From Solirubrobacterales bacterium (lineage in GTDB: Bacteria; Actinomycetota; Thermoleophilia; Solirubrobacterales; Solirubrobacteraceae), in NCBI GenBank assembly GCA_019240115.1, contig JAFAYV010000015.1:1-47350 (forward strand): a stretch of DNA of 47,350 nt, in the 5' to 3' direction. The translations under genes and the position numbers were made by a program. Shown in pieces: positions 1-8,168 of this stretch; within the stretch, counting starts at the first letter, position 1, and every line of letters starts with the position of its first letter. The notes below the pieces were generated by a model. That model saw only the letters and a program-made list of their open reading frames with translations, did no database searches and was not told where the DNA came from.

Positions 1-911
1 AGGTCGCGTCGGCGCTGGTATATCTCGTTCATTGCCTTGACATGCGCGTCGACCGCGGGCGCCAGCGCCGCTGCTCCGGCCAGCTGGACGGCCTCGAACA
101 GGCCCGAGTCGATGTTCGACTTCAGCTGCCAGTAGTGCGAGATCGCCTGGGCATTGCCGACGATCGCCGCGCAGCGCCACCCGGTCATGTTGTAGCCCTT
201 GGAGAGCGAGAACACCTCGACCCCGACCTCGCGGGCGCCGGGGGTGGCCAGGAACGAGGGCGCCACGTAGCCGTCGAACGTCGTCTCGGAGTAGGCGTTG
301 TCGTGGACGACGAGCAGGTCGTTGGCGCGCGCGAGCTCAATCGCCCGTTCGAACAGGCCGTCGGGCACGACCGCGCCCGTCGGGTTGTTCGGATAGTTGA
401 GGAACATGAGCTTGGCGCGGCGCAGCACGTCGCCCGGGATGGCGTCGAGGTCGGGGGCGAAGTCGAGCTCGGGCTCGAGGCCGAGCAGGTAGGGCTCGCC
501 GCCGGTCAGCAGCGGGCCGCCGGTGTAGACGGGATAGCCGGGGTCGGAGGCGAGCGCAACGTCGCCGGGATCCAGGAACGCGAGGTTGAGGTGAAAGATG
601 CACTCCTTGGCGCCGATCGCCGCCATCACCTCGCTCGCCGGGTCAAGCGCGACGCCGAAGCGCCGCTCATAGAAGGCGGCGACCGCCTCGCGGAACTCGG
701 GCCGGCCCCGGTTGCTCGGGTATTGGTGGGTGCCGGGATCGGCCACCGCGCGCTGGGCCGCCGCGACGATCGGGGGATAGGTGGGCGTGTCGGGATCGCC
801 GATCCCGAGGCTGATGACGTCGATCCCGGCGGCGCGCTTCTCCTCGATCTTCCGGGCCAGCTCGGCGAACAGATACGGCGCGATCGTGTCGAGGCGCTTA
901 CTCGGTCGCAT
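1..911 (-). CDS. dapL: LL-diaminopimelate aminotransferase (C-terminus beyond window)
   Basis: PLP-dependent class I/II aminotransferase that would convert tetrahydrodipicolinate to LL-diaminopimelate with glutamate as donor (cytoplasm, lysine and peptidoglycan precursor pathway). About 303 codons are visible; the 3' end lies left of base 1. Seen: MRPSKRLDTIAPYLFAEL start, an SLGIGDPDTPT segment, YPNNPTG near residue 172, and the Schiff-base lysine in SLSKGYNMTGWR at Lys238. The KSNIDSGLFEAVQ segment after it is typical of DapL rather than AspC. The ATG lies 14 bases inside dapF, so the two genes overlap and are probably translationally coupled. The dapF partner supports the DapL assignment over a general aspartate or alanine aminotransferase, though substrate cannot be proved from sequence. 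Confidence 0.85.
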   Translation of the reverse strand, partial: MRPSKRLDTIAPYLFAELARKIEEKRAAGIDVISLGIGDPDTPTYPPIVAAAQRAVADPGTHQYPSNRGRPEFREAVAAFYERRFGVALDPASEVMAAIGAKECIFHLNLAFLDPGDVALASDPGYPVYTGGPLLTGGEPYLLGLEPELDFAPDLDAIPGDVLRRAKLMFLNYPNNPTGAVVPDGLFERAIELARANDLLVVHDNAYSETTFDGYVAPSFLATPGAREVGVEVFSLSKGYNMTGWRCAAIVGNAQAISHYWQLKSNIDSGLFEAVQLAGAAALAPAVDAHVKAMNEIYQRRRD

Positions 912-1752
912 GCAGCTCCTTGATGAAGTCGTCGGCCAGGGTGCCGGAGAACACCGGCGCCGCCCAGCCTGAGAGATTGACCTGAAGATCGTCTGAGACC
1001 TCCACCCCGAGCTCGCCCCCGTCGAGCACGACCGTCACCGGCGAACCGCCGCCGGCGAGGACGTGGGCGACGGCAGCCCCGGTCGCCCCGGTGCCGCTCG
1101 CCGAGGTCTCCCCGACCCCCCGCTCGAAGATCCGCGCCCGGATCCGGTCGGCGGTCAGCGGGACGTACCACGAGACGTTCGTGCGGTTGGGAAACAGTGC
1201 GTGGCGCTCGATCCCGGGGCCGATGCTCGGCAGGTGCAGCGCCTCGAGCTCCCCGAGGTCCGCAACGCGGATCGCGCACTGGGGGTTGCCGACCTGCACG
1301 TGCTGGAAGCCGATCGGGTCGCGGCCGTCGCCCGCCAGCTCGCCGCGGCCGTCGGGCGGTCCCGAGGGGAAGTCGGCGCTGGCCAAGCGCATGCGGCCGA
1401 TGCTCAGCCGCGCGGTCGTCGGCGAGGTGATCGTCGGACGGATCTCGCCGGCCGCCGTCTGGATCGAGAACTCGTCGGAGTCGGTCCAGCCCCGGCGCCG
1501 AAGGTAGAGCACCGCCTCGCGGGCGCCGTTGCCCGACATCTCGGCCTCGGAGCCGTCGGGGTTGAAGATCCGCAGCCGCGCCACGTAGCCGGGCTCGTCG
1601 GGGGCCGACAGGAGCAGGATGCCGTCGGCGAACACGCCGGTGTGGGCGGCACAGAGCGCCCGGACCCGAGCTGGGGTCAGCTCGAACGGCATCCGGGCGG
1701 CCTCGACGATCGCGTAGTCGTTGCCCAGCGCCTGCCACTTCTCGAAGTCCAC
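898..1752 (-). CDS. dapF: Diaminopimelate epimerase homologue with Ser/Ser active site
   Basis: DapF family: interconverts LL- and meso-diaminopimelate using two cysteines as acid and base. The GTG start at 1752 gives 284 aa beginning VDFEKWQALGNDY, which matches the family start; an upstream ATG at 1788 would add 12 residues. Family landmarks are clear (GNDY, EMSGNGARE, ERGVGETSASGTGA). However, the first catalytic cysteine (normally CGNG) is Ser73 (codon TCG) and the second (normally ACGTG) is Ser219 (codon AGC). The rest of the fold is intact and the frame is open, so this is a coherent substitution rather than decay. It overlaps dapL by 14 bases. A TACACT -10-like hexamer 8 nt before the GTG suggests a leaderless mRNA. 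Family assignment is firm; activity is uncertain. Confidence 0.88.
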   Translation of the reverse strand: MDFEKWQALGNDYAIVEAARMPFELTPARVRALCAAHTGVFADGILLLSAPDEPGYVARLRIFNPDGSEAEMSGNGAREAVLYLRRRGWTDSDEFSIQTAAGEIRPTITSPTTARLSIGRMRLASADFPSGPPDGRGELAGDGRDPIGFQHVQVGNPQCAIRVADLGELEALHLPSIGPGIERHALFPNRTNVSWYVPLTADRIRARIFERGVGETSASGTGATGAAVAHVLAGGGSPVTVVLDGGELGVEVSDDLQVNLSGWAAPVFSGTLADDFIKELHATE

Positions 1753-1790
1753 GCGGCGGCAGTGTATGTGTACCGTCGCCTCGGTCATGG
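1748..1790. promoter_or_regulatory. Interleaved divergent promoters, dapF / glycosyltransferase
   Basis: The ATG of the plus-strand gene (1787) and the upstream ATG of dapF (1788) share bases, so there is no ordinary intergenic space. Minus strand: ATGACC (1788-1783), 16-nt spacer, TACACT (1766-1761), then 8 nt to the dapF GTG. Plus strand: TACCGT (1771-1776), then 10 nt to the ATG at 1787. Neither start has a well-placed Shine-Dalgarno. Inference: two leaderless transcripts from promoters lying inside each other. Confidence 0.4.
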
Positions 1791-3151
1791 TTCGGCGCCC
1801 GCGCCTCCGGTCGCTCTCGCCGCTGGTCGCGCTCGCCGTGCTCTCGGTCCTGTCGTTGGCCGCGCGCGGGCTCCTGCTCGACGAGCCCTGCCAGTCGCCG
1901 TGCACGACCGCCTCCGAGCACACGCTCATCTTCGACGAGGCCTATTACGTCAACGCCGCGCGCGTCATCGCGGGCATCCGGCCGCCCGCCGGCTCCCACT
2001 ACGACCGATCACCGCTGCGCACCGACCCCAACGCCGAGCATCCCCAGGGCGCCAAGCTGATCATGGCCGCGGCGATCGAGATCTTCGGCGACGGTCCCTT
2101 CGCGTGGCGGATCGGCAGCCTGCTGTTCGGGTCGCTGGCGATCCTCGGCATGTACGCGCTCGTCCGCGCCGCCGGCGGCGGTCCGTGGTCGGCGTTCGGA
2201 GCCGCTGCGCTGATGGCCTGCGACAACCTCCTGCTCGTCCACGGGCGGATCGCCACGCTCGACATCTACGCGGTGGCGCCGATGGTCTGGGGCGTCGCCG
2301 CCTACCTGAGCGGGCGACCAGGGCTCGCCGGCGTGCTGCTCGCAGTCGCCGACTGCTTCAAGGAGGTCGCGCCCTACGCGCTGTTCGTGCTCGGCCTGCT
2401 CGAGCTCGGTCGCGTCCTGGTCGCGTGGCGCGATCGGCGCCAACCCACGGATTGGGGCTGGCGCCCCGCGCTGCGGCGGCTGGTCGTCGCGGTCGCGGTC
2501 AGCATCGTCGGCTTCGTCGGCCTGCTCGGGATCATGGGCCTGATCGCCAGGCCCTACGCCGACGCCGAGGGGCGGCTCATCACCGGCGGCCCGATCGACC
2601 ACCTGCGGCACATGATCACCTACGCCGAGGCGCTGGTGGCGCCGCACGGCGCGACCGGGATCGCCTCCTATCCGTGGCAGTGGCTCGTGGATTACAAGCC
2701 GATCGTGTACGTGCGCATCAACTCGTCGCTGCCCGGCCAGGGGCTGGGGGCGATCCACCCGGTATCGGCGTTCATCGGCATGGTCAGCCCGCCGATCCTC
2801 GCGCTCGGACTCGCCGGGGTCCTGTTCGCCCTGTTCCGGCTGACGCTCGCCCCGCGGCTGGCCGCCGGCGTGGCGACTCGCTCGGCGCCCCAGCTGCAGC
2901 TGGCGATCCTCGGCGCCGCCTGGTTCATCGGCACGTGGGCGCCGTATCAGTTCCAGAGCGCCGTCGACCACCGGATCAGCTACCTCTACTACATGGTCGT
3001 GGTGATGCCGGGGCTGTACGTGGCCGCGGTCAGCCTCGCCTCGCTCGGCTGGCGCACCGGCCGTCGCTGGCTGCGGTGGCTGATCGCCGTCTGGAGCGTG
3101 ACGGTCCTCGTCGCCGTCGTGCTGATGTATCCCTTCGTGGCGGCGTTCTGA
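1787..3151 (+). CDS. PMT/GT39-like membrane glycosyltransferase
   Basis: A 454-aa polytopic membrane protein of the dolichyl-phosphate-mannose mannosyltransferase type (GT-C fold). Family role: transfer of a sugar from a polyprenyl-phosphate donor to protein or glycan on the outer face of the membrane. Seen: a first membrane segment at residues 11-27, then the acidic loop motif LIFDEAYYVNAA (the Asp-Glu pair typical of GT-C catalytic loops), about nine further hydrophobic segments, and a C-terminal segment ending VVLMYPFVAAF. It ends 4 bases before the convergent miaA stop. Start chosen at ATG 1787 because it places a short basic tail before the first helix. Acceptor unknown; ArnT-like activity is an alternative. 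Confidence 0.75.
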   Translation: MVRRPRLRSLSPLVALAVLSVLSLAARGLLLDEPCQSPCTTASEHTLIFDEAYYVNAARVIAGIRPPAGSHYDRSPLRTDPNAEHPQGAKLIMAAAIEIFGDGPFAWRIGSLLFGSLAILGMYALVRAAGGGPWSAFGAAALMACDNLLLVHGRIATLDIYAVAPMVWGVAAYLSGRPGLAGVLLAVADCFKEVAPYALFVLGLLELGRVLVAWRDRRQPTDWGWRPALRRLVVAVAVSIVGFVGLLGIMGLIARPYADAEGRLITGGPIDHLRHMITYAEALVAPHGATGIASYPWQWLVDYKPIVYVRINSSLPGQGLGAIHPVSAFIGMVSPPILALGLAGVLFALFRLTLAPRLAAGVATRSAPQLQLAILGAAWFIGTWAPYQFQSAVDHRISYLYYMVVVMPGLYVAAVSLASLGWRTGRRWLRWLIAVWSVTVLVAVVLMYPFVAAF

Positions 3152-3155
3152 GCGG

Positions 3156-4067
3156 TCACGCGGCGGTCCACCAGCGCACGACCTCGCCGGCGGCGTCGTC
3201 GGGCGAGCGCTCGGTGACGTCGAGCACGCGCGCGCCGGCGAGCTTGCGCATCCAGGTCAGCTGGCGGCGGGCGTACTGGCGCGTGCGGCGCTTCATCGTC
3301 TCGATGTCGTCGACCAGCAGCTCGTCGAAGCCGAGCGCGCGGCGCGCGGTCCCCGAGGCGCCGGCGGCGTGGGCGCGGCGCACCTCGTCGCGCACGCCGG
3401 CAACGAGCATCGCGTCGACCCGGTCATCGATGCGCGCATACAGCGCCTGGCGCTCCATCGTCAGCCCGACGAGCAGGGTCGGGCGGCGGGTCTGCGCCGT
3501 CCACAGCTGCGACTCGCCCTCCGGCGGCTCGAGCTCGCCGCCGTCGGAGAGCTCGAGCGCGCGCACGATCCGCTGGCGATCGGTCGGCGCAATCTTCGCC
3601 GCCGCCCACGGCGCCCGCTGCGCGAGCACGGCGTGCAGCGCCGCCGGTCCCCGCGCCTGAAGCTCGGCGATCCACCGGGCGCGTACCCCCTCGGCCGGCG
3701 GCGGGCGCAAGCTCAGCTCGGTCAGCGCCGCACGCAGATACAGGCCGGTGCCGCCGACCACGAGCGGTCGCCGGCCGGCGGCGAGCGCGTCGTCGATCTC
3801 GGCGTGCGCCAGCTCGGCGTAGTGCCCGGCGCTGAAGCCGGCGTCGACGGGCAGGAACGACAGCAGCCGGTGCTCGAGGGCGGCGCGGTGCGTCGCGTCG
3901 GCGGCGCCGGTGAGGATCTCGAGCCCCGAGTAGACCTGCAGCGCATCGGCCGAGATCGCCACCGGATCCTCCCCGAGGACCCGGAGCCGCCGCGCGACCG
4001 CGACCGCCACCTCGGTCTTGCCGACCCCGGTGGGACCGAACAGCGCGATGACCTCGAGCGCGGCCAC
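3156..4067 (-). CDS. miaA: tRNA dimethylallyltransferase
   Basis: MiaA transfers a dimethylallyl group to N6 of A37 in tRNAs reading UNN codons, the step before MiaB methylthiolation. The GTG start at 4067 gives 303 aa, a normal length. Seen: P-loop GPTGVGKT at residues 9-16, SADALQVYSG with the conserved Asp, VVGGTGLYLRA, and a basic C-terminal RRQLTWMRKL segment before the WWTAA tail. An open frame continues far upstream (to 4505), but that part overlaps the tandem repeat and the FIST gene and lacks MiaA similarity. miaB lies about 6 kb away on the same strand, so both tRNA-A37 steps are in the window. Confidence 0.92.
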   Translation of the reverse strand: MAALEVIALFGPTGVGKTEVAVAVARRLRVLGEDPVAISADALQVYSGLEILTGAADATHRAALEHRLLSFLPVDAGFSAGHYAELAHAEIDDALAAGRRPLVVGGTGLYLRAALTELSLRPPPAEGVRARWIAELQARGPAALHAVLAQRAPWAAAKIAPTDRQRIVRALELSDGGELEPPEGESQLWTAQTRRPTLLVGLTMERQALYARIDDRVDAMLVAGVRDEVRRAHAAGASGTARRALGFDELLVDDIETMKRRTRQYARRQLTWMRKLAGARVLDVTERSPDDAAGEVVRWWTAA

Positions 4068-4124
4068 ACGGGGAGTATCGTGGGGCGATGGTCGCGTGTG
4101 GTCGACGCGCACGAGGGCCGGACC

Positions 4125-4205
4125 ATGAGGACCGGCGCGTGAGGACCGGCGGACCGGCGCGTGAGGACCGGCGCATGAGGACCGGCGCATGAGGACCGGC
4201 GCATG
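4125..4205 (+). repeat. 14-bp tandem repeat forming start-codon ladder before FIST gene
   Basis: Five to six copies of a 14-bp unit, GAGGACCGGCGCAT or ...CGT, run from 4127 to 4204; one copy carries an 8-bp insertion (4141-4162). Each unit holds GAGG (Shine-Dalgarno-like), 8 nt, then ATG or GTG. Starts fall at 4125, 4139, 4161, 4175, 4189 and 4203, and the last is the FIST gene. Most open a five-codon ORF, (M)RTGA, whose TGA overlaps the next start as ATGA or GTGA; the one at 4139 is longer and ends at 4192. The chain runs up to the FIST start. Confidence 0.8.
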
Positions 4206-5360
4206 AGAGCCGGTGCCGGCATCTCCGCCGACGCCGATCCCCGGGCCGGGGCGATCGCCGCCGCGCGCGACGCCGCGCGGGCGCTGAACGGCGCGGACGT
4301 CGACCTCGCGGTCGTGTTCGCCGCGGGGGCGCATCTGGCCGCTGCCGAGGTCACGCTCGAGAACGTCGCCGCCGAGCTGCGTCCGGGGGCGCTGATCGGC
4401 TGCGGCGCGGGCGGCGTGCTCGGCGCGGGGCGCGAGCTCGAGGCGGGCACCGCGGTCTCGGTGTGGGCGGCGTCGCTGCGCGAGGGCTCGGCGCGCCCAT
4501 TCCACGCCGTCGTCACCGAGATGGCCGGCGGCGGGATGCTCGAGGGGATGCCCCAGCCAAGCGCCGGCGGCGCGCTGATCATGCTCACCGACCCGTACTC
4601 GTTTCCGATGGACGCCGTGCTCGACGGGCTCGCCCGCGACGCCCCCGGGGTGCCGGTGCTCGGCGGGCTGTCAAGCGGTCGCACGCCCGACGCGGCCGCG
4701 GCGCTGTTCGCCGACGACGAGGTTCACGACGCCGGCGCCGTCGGCGTCTGCCTCGAGGGCGTCGAGATGCTCCCCTGCGTCTCCCAGGGCGCGGCCCCGC
4801 TCGGTCGCGAGATGACGATCACCGCCGCCGAGGGCAACGTCATCCACGAGCTCGCCGGCCGCCCCGCGGTCCAGGCGATCGAGGAGGCGATCGCTGAGCT
4901 GCCGACCGCCGAACGCGTGCTCGTCGCCGCCGGCCTGCTGATCGGAATCGTCATCGACGGCGGCAAGCCGGAGTACGAGCAGGGCGACTTCCTCGTCCGC
5001 GGCGCCCTCGGCGCCGACACGGACACCGGCGCGATCGCGGTCGGCGCCGGCGTCGGCACCGGTCAGATCATCCGCCTGCACGCGCGCGACGCCGAGTCGG
5101 CCGGCGAGGACCTCCGCCGCGCACTCGGCCTGCGCGCGCTGGCGAGCGGCTCGGCGCCCCCCGCCGGCGCGCTCGTCTTCTCGTGCAACGGCCGGGGCCA
5201 GGCGATGTTCGGCGCGCGCGACCACGATGCCGGCCTCGTCGACGAGGTGCTCGGCGGCGCGCCCGCCGCGGGCTTCTTCGCCGCCGGCGAGGTCGGCCCG
5301 GTCGGCGGGCGCAGCTTCGTGCATGGGTTCACGGCGACCGTCGCCGTGTTCCCGCGATGA
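4203..5360 (+). CDS. FIST N/C domain sensory-type protein
   Basis: A 385-aa soluble protein with a FIST_N domain (about residues 15-210) and FIST_C domain (about 215-385). The C-terminal signature GEVGPVGGRSFVHGFTAT is diagnostic for FIST_C, and VFAAGAHL / IGCGAGGVLG are typical of FIST_N. FIST domains are proposed small-ligand sensors often attached to or near signalling enzymes; no such enzyme is fused or adjacent here. The ATG at 4203 is the last start of the 14-bp repeat ladder, with GAGG 8 nt upstream. Its stop overlaps the next start by ATGA (5357-5360), so it is coupled to the short-chain dehydrogenase. Ligand unknown. Confidence 0.82.
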   Translation: MRAGAGISADADPRAGAIAAARDAARALNGADVDLAVVFAAGAHLAAAEVTLENVAAELRPGALIGCGAGGVLGAGRELEAGTAVSVWAASLREGSARPFHAVVTEMAGGGMLEGMPQPSAGGALIMLTDPYSFPMDAVLDGLARDAPGVPVLGGLSSGRTPDAAAALFADDEVHDAGAVGVCLEGVEMLPCVSQGAAPLGREMTITAAEGNVIHELAGRPAVQAIEEAIAELPTAERVLVAAGLLIGIVIDGGKPEYEQGDFLVRGALGADTDTGAIAVGAGVGTGQIIRLHARDAESAGEDLRRALGLRALASGSAPPAGALVFSCNGRGQAMFGARDHDAGLVDEVLGGAPAAGFFAAGEVGPVGGRSFVHGFTATVAVFPR

Positions 5361-7934: not shown

Positions 7935-8168
7935 CTGGACGTGTGTTCGAGACCAGGCGGCTCAGGCGCTGGACGCGTGTCCGAGATCGGAGCGGCTCGG
8001 GCGCGGGACGGGTGTCCGGGCGGTGGACGCGTGTCCGAGACCGGAGCGGCTCGGGCGCGGGACGCGTGTCCGGGCGCTGGACGCGTGTCCGAGACCGGAG
8101 CGGGTCAGGCGTCGGACGGGTGTCCGGGCGCTGGACGCGTGTCCGAGACCGGAGCGGCTCGGGCGTCG
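7935..8168. repeat. Composite 34+20-bp minisatellite (54-bp period)
   Basis: About four copies of a 54-bp unit; GTCCGAGA recurs at 7979, 8033, 8087 and 8141 exactly 54 apart, and a degenerate first copy at 7945 is 34 bp away. Each unit is a 34-bp part plus a related 20-bp part, each carrying the near-palindrome GGACGCGTGTCC. It fills most of the spacer between the secreted-protein gene and mscS. The 18-codon repeat it would encode is Arg/Gly/Ser only and has no start context, so I treat it as non-coding. Confidence 0.85.

Follow-up and report, generated by a model that had tools for sequence, protein, structure and literature searches.

The chemistry of cofactor-independent racemases is attributed to an acidified pair of cysteines (Cys), with diaminopimelate epimerase (DapF) as the model case. 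In the accepted mechanism, a thiol-thiolate pair acts across the alpha carbon of the substrate, backbone amides and the N-termini of helices lower its pKa, and no basic residue is near (PMC12039745). In crystal structures of DapF, diaminopimelate (DAP) is held by N11, N64, G74, N75, N157, N190, E208, R209, G218 and T219 (PMC12039745; Haemophilus influenzae numbering). Here we describe the dapF gene in a window of 47,350 nucleotides. The window is the whole of contig C98 of a 4.0-Mb, 99-contig draft genome (G000; contamination 4%), and named relatives assign it to Solirubrobacterales, a soil-dwelling order of the class Thermoleophilia. In this DapF both catalytic cysteines are replaced by serine (Ser). 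Our comparisons of sequences and predicted structure suggest that the Ser/Ser DapF is probably the working DAP epimerase of the order, with the two serines as its acid-base pair.

Serine at both catalytic positions of DapF

The dapF gene runs on the minus strand from a GTG start at 1752 to a stop codon at 898-900 and encodes 284 amino acids. An alternative upstream ATG start at 1788 would give 296 amino acids (P0001). The gene and its key codons are as follows.

898..1752, minus strand: dapF, Ser/Ser variant (open reading frame; TIGR00652 and PF01678; AlphaFold2 pLDDT 91.6; closest solved folds are DapFs)
1534..1536, minus strand: codon TCG, Ser73 (P0001 Ser85), aligned with catalytic Cys73
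1279..1281, minus strand: codon CAG, Gln158 (P0001 Gln170), aligned with His159 of H. influenzae DapF
1123..1125, minus strand: codon GAG, Glu210 (P0001 Glu222), the retained equivalent of Glu208
1096..1098, minus strand: codon AGC, Ser219 (P0001 Ser231), aligned with catalytic Cys217

The protein scored 179.1 bits against the equivalog model TIGR00652 (curated cut-off 114.65) and 131.4 bits against PF01678 (cut-off 34.7). Its motifs read AEM-S-GNG at site 1 and TSA-S-GTG at site 2, and the serine pair aligns with Cys73 and Cys217 of H. influenzae DapF. The open reading frame and this alignment bear out the first-pass annotation, which had reported both replacements with these residue numbers and codons. 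A third change, which that annotation had not noted, is GNPQ where GNPH is usual, i.e. glutamine (Gln) for His159. In a comparison by eye, the PROSITE active-site signature with its cysteine (as quoted in PMC8225329) was matched neither by the window DapF nor by the order, because serine replaces cysteine. Likewise, the two cysteines that lie on opposite faces in H. influenzae DapF (Cys73 and Cys217) are both serine in the window DapF. From its sequence, the window protein is best described as an orthologous Ser/Ser variant of DapF rather than a canonical Cys/Cys DapF.

In the AlphaFold2 model, each serine immediately precedes the N-terminus of a helix (helices 86-98 and 232-244), which is the same layout as described for the two cysteines of DapF. 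The top Foldseek match of the model was a DapF (E 8e-30, TM 0.85/0.91), and the nearest solved structures include the C73S and C217S mutants of H. influenzae DapF (2Q9H, 2Q9J).

The equivalents of all ten DAP-contact residues named above were invariant in 145 Solirubrobacterales rows of the alignment. Pocket residues for both ends of DAP are thereby kept (equivalents of N11, N64, N75, N157, N190, E208, R209 and T219). The His159 position was Gln in 145 of 145 rows of the order and His in every other group examined. Further changes specific to the order are E to S at the second residue past the equivalent of Asn190, glycine in place of alanine in the helix behind Ser219, and tryptophan for proline close to the C-terminus.

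Distribution and origins of the Ser/Ser pair

The Ser/Ser pair is a trait of the whole order and not a local mutation. Serine occurred at site 1 in 80 of the 80 named loci and at site 2 in 79, such that 79 loci were Ser/Ser and one was Ser/Gly. These loci include complete isolate genomes, with isolates of Conexibacter, Solirubrobacter, Patulibacter, Paraconexibacter and Svornostia (ten named isolates). Identical residues in so many loci, complete isolate genomes among them, imply that there was no base-calling error. A second genome set with 27 genera in four families, plus further genera from a search of the class, agreed with this result. In total, the 147 rows of the order (Ser/Gly included) represent 118 distinct proteins, and some genomes are present in both sets. 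One Ser/Gly species was the lone exception to Ser/Ser among the genomes of the order with a DapF.

Across all loci, serine at site 1 was mostly encoded by TCN, with AGC in three loci, while at site 2 it was encoded by TCN in 94 and by AGY in 56. Cys codons, which a single substitution would produce from TCC or AGC, were never seen at either site in these loci. Since two substitutions are needed to pass from a TCN to an AGY codon or back, the serine residue itself seems to be maintained at both sites. The ratio of nonsynonymous to synonymous substitution rates (dN/dS) ranged from 0.21 to 0.37, indicating purifying selection, with dS being compressed in such GC-rich genes.

We surveyed the catalytic pair across the Actinomycetota, and found Cys/Cys, Ser/Cys, Cys/Ser and Ser/Ser types. 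Within Thermoleophilia, family f7 is Ser/Ser with His159 kept, and the G that follows the T/S of its second motif is mostly replaced by S. Genus g44, in family f9, has the Ser/Cys pair. Among 30 further genomes, nearly all of which belong to other families of the phylum, about half were Cys/Cys, nine were Ser/Cys, four were Cys/Ser (L231, L236, L257, L258) and two were Ser/Ser (L238, L242). One DapF per genome is normal among variant-pair genomes elsewhere in the phylum. Ser/Cys and Cys/Ser DapFs were spread over several families in this set (L229-L258), and most family f24 genomes had two DapFs. The Ser/Ser lineages outside the order keep His159, which weakens the proposal that Gln at this position is what enables Ser/Ser.

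With the trait columns left out of the alignment, the tree requires at least five changes at site 1 and at least five at site 2. A single Ser/Ser clade within Thermoleophilia was not rejected (p 0.43); a single Ser/Ser origin across the phylum was rejected (p 0.02) once two other Ser/Ser families were included. On the evidence of the tree and these tests, the catalytic pair was altered repeatedly, each time within an otherwise normal-looking DapF, and the Ser/Ser swap arose at least twice in the phylum. The first-pass annotation had presented a single odd gene and proposed a comparison with DapF of other Thermoleophilia. That comparison gave Ser/Ser throughout Solirubrobacterales bar the one Ser/Gly species, Cys/Cys relatives in the class, and hence an order-wide trait instead, with parallel cases elsewhere in Actinomycetota.

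Gene neighbourhood and copy number

Two neighbouring genes in the window place dapF in its genomic context.

1..911, minus strand: dapL, LL-diaminopimelate aminotransferase, truncated by the start of the contig (400 bits against TIGR03540 across the 303 residues that remain; NF006756 is the best family)
3156..4121, minus strand: miaA, upstream neighbour of dapF here and in related lineages (TIGR00174, 169 bits, over the cut-off; synteny)

The dapL gene, with its ATG at 911, overlaps dapF by 14 nt and runs off the contig start. This overlap and the intact frame agree with the earlier description of dapF as complete and overlapping dapL. Among the named loci of the order plus the window, as far as they had enough flanking DNA, miaA was upstream of dapF in 63 of 65 and dapL was immediately downstream in 54 of 74. 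Cys/Cys relatives in the class show the arrangements miaA-dapF-dapL-hflX (L267) and miaA-dapF-dapL (L268), and Ser/Ser lineages are similarly surrounded. Judged by this shared position, the Ser/Ser gene is the order's own dapF, i.e. an orthologue, and not a side copy.

Each of the ten isolate genomes contained exactly one DapF, with nothing further above noise, even at E 10. A search for a second dapF had been suggested, and no Cys-type copy was found in the window genome either: its sole other copy, on contig C30, is Ser/Ser as well. This copy lies in a second block miaA-mannosyltransferase-dapF-dapL-hflX (L005, 4959-10800), with DNA 78% identical to the window. Over 3.8 kb the block matches G007:C256 at 97.8% identity, and contig C30 is probably a co-binned contig from a neighbouring species. 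Genome G021 contained a distant Cys/Cys DapF (32% identical) on a 4-kb contig, which is likely contamination.

In most other Solirubrobacterales, miaA directly adjoins dapF. In the window, a divergent mannosyltransferase-like gene (1721-3151), with a weak match to protein O-mannosyltransferase, lies between them. Two tandem arrays were also present, at 4107-4207 (14-bp unit, 7.6 copies) and at 7965-8165 (54-bp unit, 3.7 copies, 92% matches).

Probable role of the two serines and comparison with known systems

Meso-DAP has been stated to be the diagnostic wall amino acid for all Solirubrobacterales (PMC3035278), and whole-cell hydrolysates of Solirubrobacter deserti CPCC 204708 contain meso-DAP (PMC10722151). 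The DapF of this same strain (L210) is Ser/Ser. MurE with the motif DNPR, which we take to be the motif of DAP-adding enzymes, was found in eight genomes, and LysA is encoded in the window genome. DAP dehydrogenase (Ddh, TIGR01921) is a known alternative route to meso-DAP. It had no match in the window genome, and exceeded the cut-off in only two of the 120 genomes of the order; the same search found it in two of 14 well-known genomes as a control. Hence, a DAP dehydrogenase bypass was rejected for nearly all of the order, as the enzyme is missing in 118 of the 120 genomes. Matches in the two remaining genomes (L220 and L221, both of genus g18) were clear, at more than 440 bits.

The first-pass annotation had left a choice between a Ser/Ser epimerase and a transfer of the activity elsewhere. 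The first option is favoured by serines that selection maintains across the order, by a DAP pocket that is intact, by the position of the gene as an orthologue, by the meso-DAP walls, and by the single DapF and the near lack of DAP dehydrogenase. We infer firmly that the protein is the epimerase, and less firmly that both serines carry protons. On the wider claim, we lean towards the view that the normal DapF of the whole order is a cofactor-free amino-acid epimerase whose acid and base are two serines, and that such an enzyme arose more than once, such that the thiol-thiolate pair would be dispensable for alpha-proton transfer in this fold.

In the proposed pathway, LL-DAP from DapL would be converted to meso-DAP by the Ser/Ser DapF and passed to MurE for the cell wall and to LysA for lysine. 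Ser73 and Ser219, each at the N-terminus of a helix, would face opposite sides of the alpha carbon of the substrate. Ionisation of one serine side chain may be favoured by the bound substrate, by backbone amides and by the helix dipole. This serine would then remove the alpha proton and the other would return one. Gln at the His159 position may be part of a rebuilt hydrogen-bond network, and additional changes may tune the site so that serine acts as acid and base. In DapF of Corynebacterium glutamicum a disulphide forms between the two cysteines, and the enzyme loses its activity on exposure to H2O2 (PMC5296763). A serine pair would be immune to this disulphide, and we speculate that resistance to oxidation is a possible gain.

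Several observations weigh against a Ser/Ser epimerase. The hydroxyl group of serine is a much weaker acid than a thiol. The alignment shows no conspicuous new basic residue confined to the Ser/Ser order beside either serine. One species of the window's genus (L014 and L159, the latter being G005) has glycine at the second site. Single Cys-to-Ser mutants of DapF-type racemases retain <0.1% of their activity (PMC8225329), and Cys-to-Ser mutants of HisR showed greatly reduced activity (PMC11602996). In the open-access literature searched, no Ser/Ser enzyme of the DapF fold was shown to be a two-base epimerase. The evidence for meso-DAP itself consists of a general chemotaxonomic statement and one strain matched to its genome. 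No paper describing natural Ser variants of DapF was found in the open-access literature, with most subscription journals outside the scope of this search.

An unrelated enzyme, e.g. a racemase that is pyridoxal phosphate-dependent or of broad spectrum, might make meso-DAP instead, while the Ser/Ser protein still binds DAP or serves some other purpose. This would fit the finding that a Cys-to-Ser change normally kills the reaction (PMC8225329), and other racemase families are indeed present. Ala racemases numbered one or two per genome, and the Asp/Glu-racemase family mostly one protein per genome (range none to three). Neither family had a consistent extra member, in a search that covered these two of the racemase families. 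However, a Cys-type DapF is lacking and DAP dehydrogenase almost so, the additional Asp/Glu racemases are sporadic, and the complete pocket for both substrate ends is invariant. Moreover, such a replacement would have to recur in at least two Ser/Ser lineages and in several Ser/Cys or Cys/Ser families. We consider it unlikely.

Alternatively, the protein may be the DAP epimerase, with the serine pair only positioning another group that transfers the proton (the Glu208 equivalent, bound water or the substrate itself). In favour of this reading, serine acts poorly as a base, the Glu208 equivalent never varies, the second site of one species is Gly, and the change of His159 to Gln accompanies Ser/Ser throughout the order, so the site has been rebuilt. 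Yet, with one species excepted, both sites hold serine and not alanine or glycine, in both codon families, and Ser/Ser proteins outside the order retain His159, hence Gln is not required. Serine was furthermore assigned a catalytic role in a Ser/Cys 4-hydroxyproline epimerase (PMC4113996). These points make a purely positioning role quite improbable.

PhzF-type isomerases are without the Cys pair and have the same fold, which raises the option that the protein turns over a different substrate or carries out a different reaction of the fold. PhzF proteins ranked below DapFs in the Foldseek search (ranks 27-29, E 2e-16, 19% identity), and were nearer in neither fold nor sequence. As the DAP-binding residues are all kept, the nearest solved folds are DapFs and the gene has the dapF position beside dapL, this option is very improbable. 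Finally, the gene might be decaying, or the serines might be artefacts of sequencing or assembly, for which the draft assembly with its 4% contamination might speak; Cys codons on resequencing were what the first-pass annotation had named as grounds for refutation. Error and decay are both dismissed by the recurrence of serine in isolates and across the order, the intact frames and a dN/dS well below 1.

If a double-serine DapF is indeed kept by selection where meso-DAP is needed, the cysteine pair is replaceable, and the question arises how serine takes a proton with a pKa near 29. The natural Ser/Ser DapF makes the textbook two-cysteine mechanism directly testable, and the Ser/Gly species (L014, L159) is of interest for its own route to meso-DAP. 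A natural double-serine DapF would also be relevant to Cys-directed inhibitors of DapF (e.g. aziridino-DAP, which alkylates cysteine), to the control of DapF by oxidants, and to genome annotation, where family models call such proteins DapF regardless of their catalytic residues.

Compared with known systems, the Ser/Ser DapF shares its fold, its DAP contacts, the helix N-termini with the acid-base residues and the miaA/dapL/hflX position with Cys/Cys DapF (TIGR00652, PF01678; structures from H. influenzae, Escherichia coli, C. glutamicum and Anabaena). It differs in the replacement of both catalytic cysteines by serine, in Gln for His159 and in lacking the PROSITE Cys signature. In the proline racemase superfamily, the Ser/Cys 4-hydroxyproline epimerase B9JQV3 is active by two-base epimerisation with serine as one of its two catalysts, whereas t3HypD B9K4G4, with a Ser/Thr pair, is a dehydratase that needs one base (PMC4113996). 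Both resemble the Ser/Ser DapF in their related fold and in the serine at the first catalytic position, but they act on other substrates and neither is Ser/Ser. The same substitution in the same fold is found in the laboratory mutants C73S and C217S of H. influenzae DapF (2Q9H, 2Q9J), C101S and C233S of PddB, and C67S and C209S of HisR. In contrast to these single mutants, which were nearly inactive where measured, the natural form carries both replacements, extends through the order and is under selection.
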